64,000 nt of DNA. Origin: Peptostreptococcaceae bacterium pGA-8. Lineage in GTDB: Bacteria; Bacillota; Clostridia; Peptostreptococcales; Anaerovoracaceae. The position numbers were made by a program, and so were the translations under genes. Positions within the stretch are counted from its first letter, which is position 1, and every line of letters begins with the position of its first letter. Below the pieces are notes generated by a model. The model was given only the letters and a program-made list of their open reading frames with translations, was not told the DNA's origin and ran no database searches. This document shows positions 11,191 through 16,254 of the stretch, piece after piece. The stretch is from the NCBI GenBank assembly GCA_900112915.1, contig FONK01000004.1, positions 1-64,000 on the forward strand, given 5' to 3'.

Positions 11191-11892
11191 TTAATCAAAA
11201 TGAACAGGATTCAGCTTGAACCTGTTTTTTTTGTACATTAAAAGTCCGTCTCTTTGCATTTTAGACAGCTCTTTGGATAGGGCGGACCTGTCTAAATTTA
11301 AGTAGTCTGCCATTTCCTGCCTGTTAAACGGTATTGAGAATTCATCACTTCCGGTTAGCAATTGCCGGCTTGAAAGGTATGAAGAAATTCTCATTCTCGC
11401 CGTTTTCGGTCTTGTGTGAAAGCTTCTGTTAGATAGCATAATGTTTTTCATCGATGAGGCTTTAAGCATATTCATCATAAACTTATTGAACCAAGACTTT
11501 TTTTCCGCCTCCGGCAACTTTAAGGCTTTAATATCAAAGAAAATAACCTTGCTATTGACGGCAGCCTTAACATCAACCATTAGAGGGATATTTTGTAAAT
11601 TCGCGTAGGTTTCGGCGAAAAAGTCTCCTGACTGATTTTCCCCAAGTATCATTTGATTGCCAAGAAAATCAGTATTTTCAATTAATATACGCCCCTCAAT
11701 CACGATGGCAAATACCGTAATGATGTCACCCATATGAAAAATATATTCCTTTGACTGATATTCCTTTAATTTGGCATTGAAGAACCTTGCAGCATCATCC
11801 AGCTCTTCTAAAGTGAAGCCATGAAAAGGGACTGTTTTTGTTAGGAAATCAAGGGGTAGGCTGTGATTTGAATATGTATTTTTTCCATTCAT
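11191..11892 (-). CDS. Crp/Fnr-family transcriptional regulator, probable HcpR-like regulator of the hcp operon
   Basis: The 233 residues show a cyclic-nucleotide-binding-type beta barrel (about 20-135), a dimer helix and a C-terminal Crp winged helix (about 165-228) with FNRQEMADYLNLDRSALSKE as the recognition region. It has no cysteine at all, so it cannot hold an Fnr-type iron-sulfur cluster by Cys; haem or another ligand would be needed. It is divergent from the DUF1858-hcp operon 159 bases away, the normal position of HcpR-type NO/nitrite-responsive regulators. The link to hcp is an inference from position. Confidence 0.85.
   Translation of the reverse strand: MNGKNTYSNHSLPLDFLTKTVPFHGFTLEELDDAARFFNAKLKEYQSKEYIFHMGDIITVFAIVIEGRILIENTDFLGNQMILGENQSGDFFAETYANLQNIPLMVDVKAAVNSKVIFFDIKALKLPEAEKKSWFNKFMMNMLKASSMKNIMLSNRSFHTRPKTARMRISSYLSSRQLLTGSDEFSIPFNRQEMADYLNLDRSALSKELSKMQRDGLLMYKKNRFKLNPVHFD
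11203..11232 (+). terminator. Terminator of the DXS-like gene, inside the 3' end of the convergent Crp/Fnr gene
   Basis: AACAGG 11203-11208 pairs with CCTGTT 11221-11226, followed by a run of T to 11232. The hairpin lies within the last codons of the convergent regulator gene, so the same bases serve both purposes. Confidence 0.65.
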
Positions 11893-12051
11893 TTTTTACT
11901 TCTCCAGGAATTTATAAATAAAAAGCATTTTCGTGGTTATAGCAACGGAATTGCAAAGAAAATTATATTATACTTTTCTCATAAAGGCAATGGAAGCTAT
12001 AAAAATAAGCTTTCCAATATAGTAAAACATATTAAAGAAAGAGGAAGAGAT
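11893..12051. promoter_or_regulatory. Divergent control region of the regulator and hcp operon
   Basis: An AT-rich spacer separates the two start codons. TTATATTATACT at about 11961-11972 is a plausible -10 region toward the hcp operon. GGAAGCT (from 11991) and AGCTTTCC form an imperfect hairpin in the expected leader. GGTTATAGCAAC near 11935 is a weak dyad that could bind the Crp/Fnr protein. No exact Fnr box is present. Confidence 0.4.
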
Positions 12052-12243
12052 ATGAAATATAGTAAAGAAATGACTTTAGCAGAAGTTTTAAGAGGAAATG
12101 AAAAGGCGGCAAGGGTTCTTATGTCCATGGGAATGCATTGCCTGGGTTGTCCGTCATCACAGATGGAAAGTCTTGAGGATGCAGCTATGGTACATGGAAT
12201 TAGTGTGGATGAAATACTAAATAAGCTGGAGGCTGAAGCATAA
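12052..12243 (+). CDS. DUF1858-domain protein (ScdA-type N-terminal domain)
   Basis: The 63-residue protein is a single DUF1858 domain: MTLAEVLRGNEKAARVLMSM, then MHCLGCPSSQMESLEDAAMV. The CxxCP motif (Cys30, Cys33) is the hallmark and may bind a metal or cluster. ATG 12052 follows AAAGAGGAAGAG. In iron-sulfur repair proteins (ScdA/YtfE) this domain precedes a hemerythrin-like domain; here the hemerythrin is a separate gene two positions downstream. The stop overlaps the next start (TAATG), so the genes are coupled. Confidence 0.9.
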   Translation: MKYSKEMTLAEVLRGNEKAARVLMSMGMHCLGCPSSQMESLEDAAMVHGISVDEILNKLEAEA

Positions 12244-12854
12244 TGAGTGCATTTTTAGGACCAATCCACCACATGCTGTTTGAAAAAATAAAGTTTCAAA
12301 ACACCTTTACAGACAAACTGTTAAATGCCTATGGCAATGGAAGAATTTACGAGGATGTGTTGAATAATACTGAAGATATCCCAAAAGGACAGTTGGAAGA
12401 TATTATTGACCAAAGCAATATTCACGGTTCACTTCAAGCGATGATTGCGAAGGTAGAGTATAGATTAGCATATGTTTTATGCATGCTGAAAAAAGAGAAA
12501 GGTTTTTCTTTGGATGAGGCTGTTGATTTGGCTAAAGAATATGGTATGAGAACGAGAGAAGCCGAATTAGGGGAAAACAAGTTTTACACTGCCATTGAAG
12601 CCTATACTATGGTTTCAGGCAAGCTTCTCAACGGTATGCCTTGTGATAGAATCCAAGAGATACTTGATAAGGACGAAGCTGCTGTTTTGTGGCAGGATAG
12701 ACTGGATATCCATAAGAAATATTGGGATGCAGCAAAAAGCGATGTAAGGGATTTTTATAAAATAAGAGGGGCAATGATTGCCGGCTTGATTGGTGAAAAT
12801 TTTAATTACAACGAAGTTGAACCATATAAGTTTCAAATTGTTAGAACTAATTAA
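12243..12854 (+). CDS. Conserved-looking helical protein of the hcp operon, function unknown
   Basis: The 203-residue protein overlaps the DUF1858 gene by one base and precedes the hemerythrin gene. It is strongly helical with no membrane segment. Possible metal or haem ligands are His9-His10 (FLGPIHHMLF), His61 in NIHGSLQAMIAKVEYRLAY, Glu72, Cys80, Cys134 and His157. From memory, similar proteins starting FLGPIH sit beside hcp in other Clostridia, but I know no characterised member. Position suggests a role in NO or hydroxylamine detoxification or cluster repair together with Hcp. Confidence 0.7.
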   Translation: MSAFLGPIHHMLFEKIKFQNTFTDKLLNAYGNGRIYEDVLNNTEDIPKGQLEDIIDQSNIHGSLQAMIAKVEYRLAYVLCMLKKEKGFSLDEAVDLAKEYGMRTREAELGENKFYTAIEAYTMVSGKLLNGMPCDRIQEILDKDEAAVLWQDRLDIHKKYWDAAKSDVRDFYKIRGAMIAGLIGENFNYNEVEPYKFQIVRTN

Positions 12855-12870
12855 CAGGAGGTTTAGGGTA

Positions 12871-13422
12871 ATGGATAATATTCAATTGCTGGTGTCAGAG
12901 CATGATAATATTTTGAAAATGATAAGCATTATGGAAAAAAAGGCGATAGCCTTGATGAATGATAGAAATGAGAGCGTTGAGGAGTTCTTTGAGTTTATAG
13001 ATTTTGCAAGAAATTATGCAGATAAGCATCATCATGGCAAAGAGGAACTGATACTTTTTAAATATATGGTAAGGGAGCTGGGACCTGCAGCTGAGAAGTT
13101 GGTCAACAACGGCATGCTCGTGGAACATGATTTGGGCAGATTATATGTGTCTAACCTGGAAGAGGCTGTGACACGGTACAGAGCAGAAAAAAGTGATGAA
13201 TTGCGGCTGGCTGTTTTAACCAACGCTATGGGCTATGGGGAACATTTGAGGCGACATATAGCTAAGGAAAATGATGTCGTGTACACATTTGCCCAGCGAA
13301 GCCTGTCAGATGAAGTTATGTGTAAAATTGAGGATGAAACCTTAGACTTTGAGGCGGCTAACAGCACTACGAAGTTGAAATATGAAAACTGGTTAAATGA
13401 TTTAGCCGGTAAGTATAATTAA
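12871..13422 (+). CDS. Hemerythrin-domain protein
   Basis: ATG 12871 follows CAGGAGG and gives 183 residues; the frame is open further upstream but that part overlaps the previous gene without a ribosome binding site. Ligand-type residues of a hemerythrin four-helix bundle are present: His11 (SEHDNIL), His53-55 with Glu58/59 (KHHHGKEE), His86 (VEHDLGR), His125 and His129 with Glu133 (EHLRRHIAKEND). The family holds a di-iron centre for O2 or NO binding. Together with the separate DUF1858 gene it reconstitutes the parts of a ScdA/RIC iron-sulfur repair protein. Confidence 0.92.
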   Translation: MDNIQLLVSEHDNILKMISIMEKKAIALMNDRNESVEEFFEFIDFARNYADKHHHGKEELILFKYMVRELGPAAEKLVNNGMLVEHDLGRLYVSNLEEAVTRYRAEKSDELRLAVLTNAMGYGEHLRRHIAKENDVVYTFAQRSLSDEVMCKIEDETLDFEAANSTTKLKYENWLNDLAGKYN

Positions 13423-13431
13423 AGGAGGAAA

Positions 13432-15090
13432 ATGAGCAGTAATATGGGAATGTTTTGTTATCAATGTCAAGAAACAGCCGGCGGCAAAGGCTGTACCAAA
13501 GTAGGTGTATGTGGGAAAAATGCTGATGTAGCAATATTGCAGGATTTGCTGATTTATGCAGTAAAGGGACTTTCGCAGGTTGTATATGACGGGAAAATAG
13601 ATGTTAAAGGAATTAACACTATTAATAAAGAAGCTGTTAAGGCCCTGTTTATGACAATTACCAATGCTAATTTTGATGACGCTGTGATTGAAGCTGAAAT
13701 TAAAACAATTATAGGATATAGAAATCAGTTGCTGAAACAGCTGGAGAAGTCGAATGACGGTAGCTGCCCAATTGAACTTTCTGATGCTGCAACCTTTGAT
13801 GCAGCAACTCGAGAGGACATGCTGGCTAAAGGAATAAGTGTAGGTGTTCTGTCTACAGAGAATGAAGATATTCGTTCTCTTAGAGAGCTGATTATATATG
13901 GGATAAAGGGATTGGCCGCCTATGATGAGCATGCAGCGAACTTGGGCTTTGAAGATGAAGAAATATATTCTTTTATTTACGAGGCCTTAAGAAAAACAAT
14001 GGATGATTCATTGGGCGTAGCGGAATTGATTGATCTCACTATGAGAACCGGTGAATTCGGTGTTAAAACTATGGCACTTTTAGATTCTGCAAATACTTCT
14101 GTATATGGTAATCCCGAAATTACGAAGGTAAATATAGGGACAGGAAAACGACCTGCAATTCTAATTTCAGGTCATGATCTGAAGGATTTGGAAATGCTTC
14201 TGGAACAAACAAAAAATTCCGGAGTAGACGTTTATACTCATGGAGAAATGCTACCTGCACATTATTATCCTCTGTTTAAAAAATATGATAATTTAGTTGG
14301 AAATTACGGTAATGCATGGTGGAAGCAGTTAACTGAATTTGAGAGCTTTAACGGCCCGATTCTGTTCACAACTAACTGTATAGTGCCGCCTAGAAGTGAA
14401 GCTGTTAAAAATAGAATTTTTACAACCGGAGCGGCAGGGTTCCCGGGATGCAGACATATTGAAGGCGATAGCAACGGCAATAAGGATTTTTCTGAAATAA
14501 TTGAGCTTGCTAAAAGGTTACCCGCTCCAACTCAGATTGAAAGTGGAGAAATTATCGGAGGATTCGCTCATAACCAGGTAATATCCTTGGCGGATAAGAT
14601 TGTTGAAGCAATTAAGAGTGGTGCAATTAAGAAATTTTTTGTAATGGGTGGATGCGACGGAAGAATGAAGAGCAGAGATTACTACGAAGATTTTGCTAAA
14701 AAATTGCCTGAAGACTGTATTATTCTAACCGCCGGTTGTGCTAAATACAGATACAATAAGCTGAATTTAGGCGACATTAATGGAATTCCAAGGGTGTTAG
14801 ATGCGGGGCAATGTAACGATTCATACTCTCTTGCTGTAATTGCACTAAAGCTTAAGGAAGTATTTGAAAAGGATGATATTAATGAGCTTCCAATTGCATA
14901 TAATATTGCGTGGTACGAGCAAAAGGCGGTAATAGTACTTTTGGCATTGCTATATTTAGGGGTCAAGAATATTCATCTCGGACCGACACTTCCGGGCTTT
15001 TTATCCCCAAATGTTGCTGCCGTTTTGGTCGAAAAATTTGGCATAGCAGGAATTACAGATGTTGATTCCGACATAGCGGCACTACTTTAA
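13432..15090 (+). CDS. hcp: Hydroxylamine reductase / hybrid cluster protein
   Basis: The 552-residue protein reduces hydroxylamine and acts as an NO reductase or S-nitrosylase. The N-terminal cluster motif is [14 protein letters not shown] with Cys9, Cys12, Cys21 and Cys27 (C-x2-C-x8-C-x5-C). Hybrid-cluster segments are visible as [30 protein letters not shown] and GQCNDSYS. Length is standard. ATG 13432 follows AAAGGAGG. It is the last gene of the DUF1858-unknown-hemerythrin-hcp operon, probably under the divergent Crp/Fnr regulator. Confidence 0.96.
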
Positions 15091-15177
15091 GATTTCTTTA
15101 AAGAAGGTGCAGACACTGGACTTTCATATGGTTTTAATGTAAAATATACAATATGTTTTAGATCAATGGGGGATTCA

Positions 15178-16254
15178 ATGAAAGAAAATAAAATAAGATT
15201 GAAGTTCAAAGGCTCAAAGCATCATAGGCTTTTAGCCTTTCTTCTTATTATACCTATGGCGTTTGCCTTATCAGCCTGCGGAAGCTCAACCAGCGAAAAA
15301 GACAGCAAGGAATCCACAATAGAGCTATATAATATGGATACCCATATGACAGTGACGGCCTATGGGGAAAATGCCGATAAGGCATTGGAAAAGGTTCGTG
15401 AAGAAGTAAATCGCATTGACAAGCTGCTATCTACAGGTCTTGAAGAAAGTGAAGTCTATAAGATAAACTCCGGGGCTGCCGATGCTTTGTCAGAGGATAC
15501 ATATAAATTGCTGGACAAATCCCTGCAGCTTTATAAGGATACGGATGGGGCATTTAACATTGCAGTTTATCCGATTATGGAGGCTTGGGGCTTTACAACG
15601 AAAAATTATAAGGTACCTGATGACGAGACCATTGCCAGGTTGCTGACTCTTGCCACTCCCGATGATATTTTGTTTAATCGTGATGAGCACAAAATAGCCT
15701 TTGCCAAGGAAGGTATGAAGATCGACTTTGGCGGCATAGCCAAGGGCTACACTTCAGCTAGAATTATGGAGATTTTCAAGGAGTGCGGAGTGAAATCAGG
15801 TAAGGTTAATCTTGGCGGCAATGTGCAAACCTTAGGAACAAAAACCGACGGCTCCAAGTGGCGAATTGCGATTCAGAGTCCGGATAAGGGAGATGAATAC
15901 GCAGGAGTTCTGGAAGTGGCCGACAAGGCGATTATTACTTCCGGAGGCTATGAAAGATTCTTTGAGGAGAACGGTGTTACCTATCACCACATCATAGACC
16001 CGAAGACAGGAAAGCCTGCTAAAAGCGGGCTTCAGTCCGTTACCATCGTAAGTGATGACGGAACATTGGCTGATGGGCTTTCCACCTCATTATTTATTAT
16101 GGGGAAGGATAAGTCCGTTGAATTTTGGAAAAAGCATAAGGATGAATTCCAATTTGTGCTTTTAACTGATGACAATAAGCTTGTGGCATCTGAAGGACTT
16201 AAGGGAAGCCTTACCTCAGATAGATACGAGGTGGAATTCGTCTCCGCCAAGTAG
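15178..16254 (+). CDS. apbE: FAD:protein FMN transferase, lipoprotein
   Basis: ApbE attaches FMN to threonine of exported flavoproteins such as RnfG or NqrC subunits. ATG 15178 is chosen because GGGGGA lies five bases upstream; ATG 15166 overlaps that site. The start has a signal peptide and lipobox (FALSACGSS), placing the enzyme outside the membrane. The Mg/FAD motifs KIDFGGIAKGYTSAR and YHHIIDPKTGKPAKSG are intact. At 358 residues it is complete. No flavoprotein target gene is adjacent. Confidence 0.93.
   Translation: MKENKIRLKFKGSKHHRLLAFLLIIPMAFALSACGSSTSEKDSKESTIELYNMDTHMTVTAYGENADKALEKVREEVNRIDKLLSTGLEESEVYKINSGAADALSEDTYKLLDKSLQLYKDTDGAFNIAVYPIMEAWGFTTKNYKVPDDETIARLLTLATPDDILFNRDEHKIAFAKEGMKIDFGGIAKGYTSARIMEIFKECGVKSGKVNLGGNVQTLGTKTDGSKWRIAIQSPDKGDEYAGVLEVADKAIITSGGYERFFEENGVTYHHIIDPKTGKPAKSGLQSVTIVSDDGTLADGLSTSLFIMGKDKSVEFWKKHKDEFQFVLLTDDNKLVASEGLKGSLTSDRYEVEFVSAK

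Follow-up and report, generated by a model that had tools for sequence, protein, structure and literature searches.

Contig FONK01000004.1 of Peptostreptococcaceae bacterium pGA-8 (assembly GCA_900112915.1) carries, within positions 1 to 64,000 (the 64,000-nt stretch of DNA analyzed here, referred to as the window), a divergent arrangement in which a minus-strand Crp/Fnr-type regulator faces plus-strand genes for a DUF1858 protein, a protein here named X, a hemerythrin, and the hybrid cluster protein Hcp (Table 1). X, an open frame of 203 codons between the DUF1858 and hemerythrin genes and upstream of hcp, belongs to a real, undescribed, and widespread protein family, and its predicted fold, conserved residues, and companion genes are the subject of this study.

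Table 1. Features at the X locus of the window, with the match or motif found for each
Feature	Position	Strand	Match or motif
Crp/Fnr-family regulator, divergent from operon	11191..11892	-	cNMP_binding E 1.6e-9, HTH_Crp_2 E 1.2e-8
Operator-like palindrome GTGGTTATAGCAAC, divergent promoter	11933..11946	.	Matches pattern GTNGYNNNNRCNAC
DUF1858 / TIGR03980 hybrid-cluster-protein-associated redox disulfide protein, 63 amino acids	12052..12243	+	TIGR03980 E 6.1e-26 (over cut-off), PF08984 E 1.9e-20
X, 203 amino acids, undescribed family, predicted H-NOX/V4R/TRAPP-like fold	12243..12854	+	Conserved His9, His61, Cys134-Asp135, His157
Single-domain hemerythrin, 183 amino acids, X-linked subfamily	12871..13422	+	PF01814 E 2.2e-12
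hcp, full-length hybrid cluster protein / hydroxylamine reductase	13432..15090	+	NF003658 E 2.9e-251
ApbE-type FAD:protein FMN transferase, downstream of hcp	15166-16254		Family-model match

A scan of 84,980 GTDB species genomes yielded 557 relatives of X, so X is not a chance frame, and its description as a 203-residue protein within a DUF1858-hemerythrin-hcp operon, made earlier from the DNA letters alone (here referred to as the sequence-only reading), holds. That reading also had X overlapping its neighbors, which is true on the upstream side by a single base (TAATG) and not on the downstream side, where the hemerythrin, mechanically framed from TTG 12790, most likely starts at ATG 12871, preceded by AGGAGG and 16 bases past the end of X. 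Going by record titles, the best 80 of the 557 relatives are mostly from Clostridia. Within the host's GTDB family, 9 of 99 genomes carry X, as do 28 of 291 within its class, and profile searches found it in 17 of 299 phylum genomes and in 124 of 393 order genomes, the latter count taking in degenerate paralogues and fragments. Six plasmid or second-replicon records carry the gene, two of them from Cetobacterium (Fusobacteriota); it is called "hypothetical protein" in five and is without annotation in one. In a sister species (G083), tblastn with ten window proteins against 16.5 kb around metK returned only metK and its neighbor, and no dxs, regulator, DUF1858, X, hemerythrin, hcp, or apbE.

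Database searches gave X no name. There was no match to NCBIfam up to E 1 or to PHROGs, and a single meaningless match to Pfam (E 0.096); when 46 members were searched against Pfam, no family was matched by more than two of them (best E 0.0052, one member). Nothing significant was found among PDB sequences for the protein (best E 0.19) or its profile (best E 0.39), none of 25 pattern matches in viral contigs was an X relative, and searches of open-licence papers showed none that could be recognized as describing X.

Predicted fold of X

The AlphaFold2 model of X (model 1; mean predicted local distance difference test score, pLDDT, 95.9) is mostly helical, as had been read from the sequence, and adds four C-terminal strands (138-143, 147-152, 187-193, and 196-201) around helix 168-183. 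This order, helices first and then an alpha/beta half built as hairpin-helix-hairpin, recurs in model 2, that of a Clostridium cadaveris relative with 34% identity to X (mean pLDDT 95.1). The H-NOX/V4R/TRAPP superfamily was guessed from this secondary structure ahead of reading the fold-search results. Foldseek placed H-NOX first for model 1 (E 0.036, probability 0.92), with TRAPP subunits next, and first again for model 2 (E 0.0044, probability 0.99), with further H-NOX and TRAPP entries below. When model 1 was compared with 746 chains by VIA-align 2, the top 50 rows (Z 8.3 to 6.4) were all H-NOX/soluble guanylate cyclase, TRAPP, or V4R, 46 of them assigned by title and the remaining four being entries that we take to belong to the same superfamily; the best Z was 8.3, and H-NOX was aligned at Z 7.9 over 152 residues at 4.1 Å.

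The sequence signatures of the two nearest families were then looked for. YxSxR is the motif of H-NOX, and it is not in the consensus of the 46 X sequences. Neither PF07700 (HNOB) nor PF02830 (V4R) is among the 23 families listed for the 46 members up to E 10, and the host genome has no HNOB match. A proximal heme His is lacking, the only conserved His residues of X being 9, 61, and 157, none of them in helix 117-127, and no Cys beyond residue 134 is conserved in the 46 sequences that could form the zinc-Cys set of V4R. Because the signatures of both families failed, X is placed outside them; by predicted fold, and with modest scores, it probably belongs to the H-NOX/V4R/TRAPP superfamily.

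In this comparison, X resembles the heme NO/O2 (nitric oxide/oxygen) sensor domains of H-NOX in predicted fold (model residues 15-203) and in its NO-related setting, but differs from them in lacking a PF07700 match, the proximal His, and YxSxR, and in having a His/His/Cys/His set and a hemerythrin companion. According to the part of PMC7108781 consulted, the proximal heme His is absolutely conserved among the H-NOX sequences compared there. With V4R (PF02830; DmpR, MopR, PoxR) and TRAPP Bet3, X shares mostly the C-terminal two thirds of the predicted fold, and His157 lies past the second strand, about where V4R has its first zinc Cys when the sequences are read by eye; X differs in having no PF02830 match and no C-terminal CxxxGDxxC, and in an extra N-terminal helical part that bears His9. 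The zinc ligands of DmpR are given as Cys151, Glu172, Cys177, and Cys185 in the portion of PMC7264223 consulted.

Conserved residues and degenerate paralogues

Among the 46 dereplicated sequences, His9, His61, Glu72, Cys134, and Asp135 are invariant and His157 is conserved in at least 90%. In an alignment of 133 rows, which includes five repeat fetches and three fragment rows, the counts are 126 for His9, 123 for His61, 130 for Glu72, 126 for Cys134, 128 for Asp135, and 127 for His157, while position 10 is His in 40 and Tyr in 45 rows. The sequence-only reading, which had singled out His9-His10, His61, Glu72, and His157, all of them present in X, and had named poor conservation of the His residues as the result that would count against it, was thus right except for His10; it had not listed Cys134-Asp135, which are conserved to the same degree as the other four. 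Exceptions outside the paralogue clade described below are a member without His61 and Cys134 (L038), one copy with His61 replaced by Gln (L150), one with His157 replaced by Arg (L041), and one with Glu72 replaced by Asp (L064). Two X proteins (L033 and L034) have a Cys/His-rich insert right after His157.

Genus g93 carries an X paralogue at nine loci, and in all nine, His9, His61, Cys134, and His157 are replaced and Asp135 is changed to Glu, while Glu72, Trp161, and Arg175 are retained. At the level of sequence, the joint loss of four residues is what a single shared site would give, and the retention of Glu72 would place this residue outside the putative site. In six of the nine loci (L153, L180, L181, L184, L185, and L186) the paralogue stands directly behind a full-length Hcp, and in the other three (L154, L182, and L183) there is no Hcp within the sequence stretch examined.

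Companion genes and the operator-like palindrome

Gene neighborhoods were compared in two sets, namely, the best 80 of the 557 relatives with flanks of up to 6 kb, a set that is biased to near relatives and dereplicates to 45 loci, and 37 loci drawn evenly from the host-family and class searches with 1.5-kb flanks. The 80 loci hold hemerythrin in 71, DUF1858 in 52, Crp/Fnr in 50, and any Hcp in 33 (21 full length, 12 short), and the 45 dereplicated loci hold hemerythrin in 36, DUF1858 in 24, Crp/Fnr in 24, full Hcp within 6 kb in 18, and short Hcp in 4; the hemerythrin lies on the same strand within 300 bp of X in 36 of the 45. Hemerythrin or DUF1858 is present in 21 of the 37 evenly drawn loci and Hcp in 5, one of them short, and none of these neighbor genes was found in 23 control loci of H-NOX and V4R proteins (flanks of about 1.5 kb). 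The hemerythrin link is strong near the branch of the window and weaker in remote branches, where X is sometimes alone and sometimes next to genes for cupin, ferredoxin, flavodiiron-like, Suf, or sulfite-reductase proteins (named by reading sequences).

Strict dependence of X on hcp was considered and rejected on these counts. Hcp had been taken as the main companion, with homologues lying mostly away from hcp as the finding that would tell against a partnership; most dereplicated loci indeed have no full-length Hcp within 6 kb, and the link of X to the wider system persists through hemerythrin, DUF1858, Crp/Fnr, and the palindrome described below. At the genome level, all nine X-positive genomes of the host family hold TIGR03980 over the cut-off (40 of 99 genomes overall; p 1.6e-4) and Hcp over the cut-off (38 of 99; p 9.4e-5). 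A search of the 99 family genomes with the window hemerythrin gave matches in four, all of them beside X (Fisher p 3.3e-5, uncorrected for relatedness). In one genome of the host's family (G807), X (residues 27-220) and hemerythrin (231-415) lie in one 421-codon frame (L177:2389-3651) downstream of a full Hcp. The closest partner of X thus appears to be the dedicated single-domain hemerythrin and not Hcp.

A second candidate that was rejected is that the operon carries the domains of the repair protein RIC/ScdA as separate genes, as the sequence-only reading had claimed. The DUF1858 protein matches ScdA_N at E 0.017 with 15.2 bits, below the cut-off of 32.5, and is a DUF1858/TIGR03980 protein; the RIC model TIGR03652 is not matched by the hemerythrin of the window and is matched weakly by the fused protein of G807 (23.3 bits, cut-off 204.7). 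The RIC/ScdA/YtfE di-iron repair proteins share with the X operon the type of stress and a hemerythrin-type di-iron partner, but the X operon has DUF1858 in the place of ScdA_N and a hemerythrin outside TIGR03652, and X itself has no counterpart in RIC.

Several loci deviate in layout. A short Hcp-like protein with the N-terminal helical part only (L093:5070-5783; Prismane E 7.9e-9, profile 32-179 of 513) precedes DUF1858-X-hemerythrin in one, and in another a DUF2249 protein (L047:3109-3810) sits between the divergent regulator and DUF1858-X-hemerythrin. On a Paraclostridium bifermentans plasmid (L158), annotated cupins, hemerythrin, ferredoxin, and hcp adjoin X, hemerythrin, nifU, DUF1858, and a second hcp.

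The palindrome pattern GTNGYNNNNRCNAC was read by eye from L060, L082, L093, and L100 and then tested. In the dereplicated set, 20 stretches upstream of a minus-strand Crp/Fnr gene were examined, two of which are short ends of 47 and 55 bp; 11 of them contain the pattern, against 0.04 expected in first-order random sequences, and so do 8 of the 17 that remain when L060, L093, and L100 are set aside. Of four further stretches, two match (the window and L175) and two do not (L179 and L173); the whole 64-kb window contains two matches. The palindrome resembles the HcpR2 consensus GTAACnnnnGTTAC given in the consulted part of PMC1274295, with differing half-sites. The window accordingly presents both marks of an HcpR-type operon, i.e., a divergent Crp/Fnr gene and a palindromic operator-like site, and from its position and this palindrome the regulator is probably HcpR-like. 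Since L046 and L083 carry the palindrome before DUF1858-X-hemerythrin with no Hcp in the stretch examined, the X operons seem, on sequence grounds, to belong to an HcpR-type regulon in their own right. Compared with the hcp operons with hcr or frdX under HcpR, as far as these are described in the part of PMC1274295 consulted, the window has in common the Crp/Fnr regulator, palindrome, and hcp, but X loci carry the X-hemerythrin-DUF1858 set, often without hcp.

Role of X and alternative explanations

The explanation that we favor, at about even confidence, is that X is a metal-binding, cytosolic partner of the dedicated hemerythrin, with an H-NOX-like fold, in an HcpR-type NO/redox defense operon. 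Its site would be built from His9, His61, Cys134 (with Asp135), and His157; NO or oxidation would act on this site, or the site would trade metal or NO with the di-iron hemerythrin, and X would relay the change to the hemerythrin and the DUF1858 redox-disulfide protein. X keeps three His and one Cys in a fold that holds ligands, and therefore the metal would most likely be iron or zinc. The consulted parts of PMC7108781 and PMC7264223 describe that the same fold holds heme, aromatic ligands, or zinc in H-NOX and V4R proteins, and that oxidizing the Cys of a zinc site can act as a switch in an H-NOX. We infer that the four residues would meet in space and bind metal, and that X would respond to NO and touch the hemerythrin physically. 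The earlier proposal of a new partner in this operon is supported, its conserved His residues acting like one site. In a narrower and more tentative form, X may be a non-heme, metal-based member of the H-NOX superfamily, in which a His3-Cys center would replace heme and NO or redox state would be signaled to, or exchanged with, the dedicated di-iron hemerythrin.

Several observations weigh against this explanation. The joint loss of the four residues is confined to one clade and is probably one event, and the site-less paralogues behind Hcp in six of the nine loci indicate that the His/Cys site is not needed for the Hcp link. As to the fold, designed proteins and ribosome recycling factors are mixed into the Foldseek list of model 1, designed proteins also appear in that of model 2, and neither model has a match at E ≤ 0.001; a Z near 8 can reflect merely a common arrangement. 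Profile comparison by hhalign gave no signal of sequence kinship, with a probability of 0.6 for X versus H-NOX (15 sequences chosen by the YxSxR motif) and 0.4 versus V4R, beside a similarly poor 1.2 for H-NOX versus V4R itself and 0.2, 0.5, and 0.08 for three unrelated controls. As to the companions, 5 of the 9 X-positive family genomes lack this hemerythrin, and the fusion stems from one draft genome, where a frameshift or assembly error is possible. Of the 37 evenly drawn loci, a hemerythrin gene is found within 1.5 kb of X in 19 and a DUF1858 gene in 14 (leaving out L002 and L006, where the first DUF1858 profile also matched Hcp frames), and several remote members stand alone.

The site-less paralogues suggest an additional docking role for the bare X fold. 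They would also fit an alternative in which X is an adaptor or scaffold on which hemerythrin, DUF1858, and Hcp dock, perhaps with a structural zinc, in the manner of V4R sensory domains and TRAPP subunits. Among the folds nearest to the model are those of TRAPP/Bet3 subunits and V4R domains, and zinc sites of H-NOX and DmpR exist in the superfamily (in the consulted parts of PMC7108781 and PMC7264223). The ligand set of X, however, is unlike the published zinc sites, and the strictness with which three His and one Cys are kept speaks for more than scaffolding, so that we regard this role as rather unlikely. A heme held in the H-NOX pocket with a different axial ligand (Cys134 or a His), which would make X a putative NO or O2 sensor, would suit the NO-defense context and the H-NOX structures at the top of both Foldseek lists; as the helix that precedes the strands (residues 117-127) carries no conserved His and YxSxR is missing from the alignment, a heme sensor is quite doubtful.

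The fold assignment may be wrong, X having a new alpha/beta fold with no more than a likeness to the superfamily, to which its matches run at TM-scores of about 0.3-0.5; this is improbable, as the models of two proteins of 34% identity both give the same superfamily first and the top 50 VIA-align 2 rows are free of unrelated entries. An enzyme or an electron carrier feeding Hcp or hemerythrin is the least probable of these roles: a ferredoxin-like gene adjoins X in G011 and G095 (identified by reading sequences) and an annotated ferredoxin lies in the Paraclostridium plasmid island, but the family searches found no enzyme family for X, and the superfamily of the predicted fold is one whose domains bind ligands or act as scaffolds. 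The predicted fold would be better suited to binding a ligand or metal than to the electron-carrier role raised by the sequence-only reading, for which specific support was not obtained.

In anaerobes, Hcp, hemerythrins, and DUF1858 proteins are associated with nitrosative and redox stress, and how they work jointly is poorly understood. An unannotated, widespread family that accompanies a dedicated hemerythrin and seemingly shares the fold of the best-known NO sensors is a concrete missing part of this picture. If the site of X binds iron, this would reveal a way for anaerobes poor in heme to respond to NO, and a non-heme X, if true, would give anaerobes a heme-free module for responding to gas.

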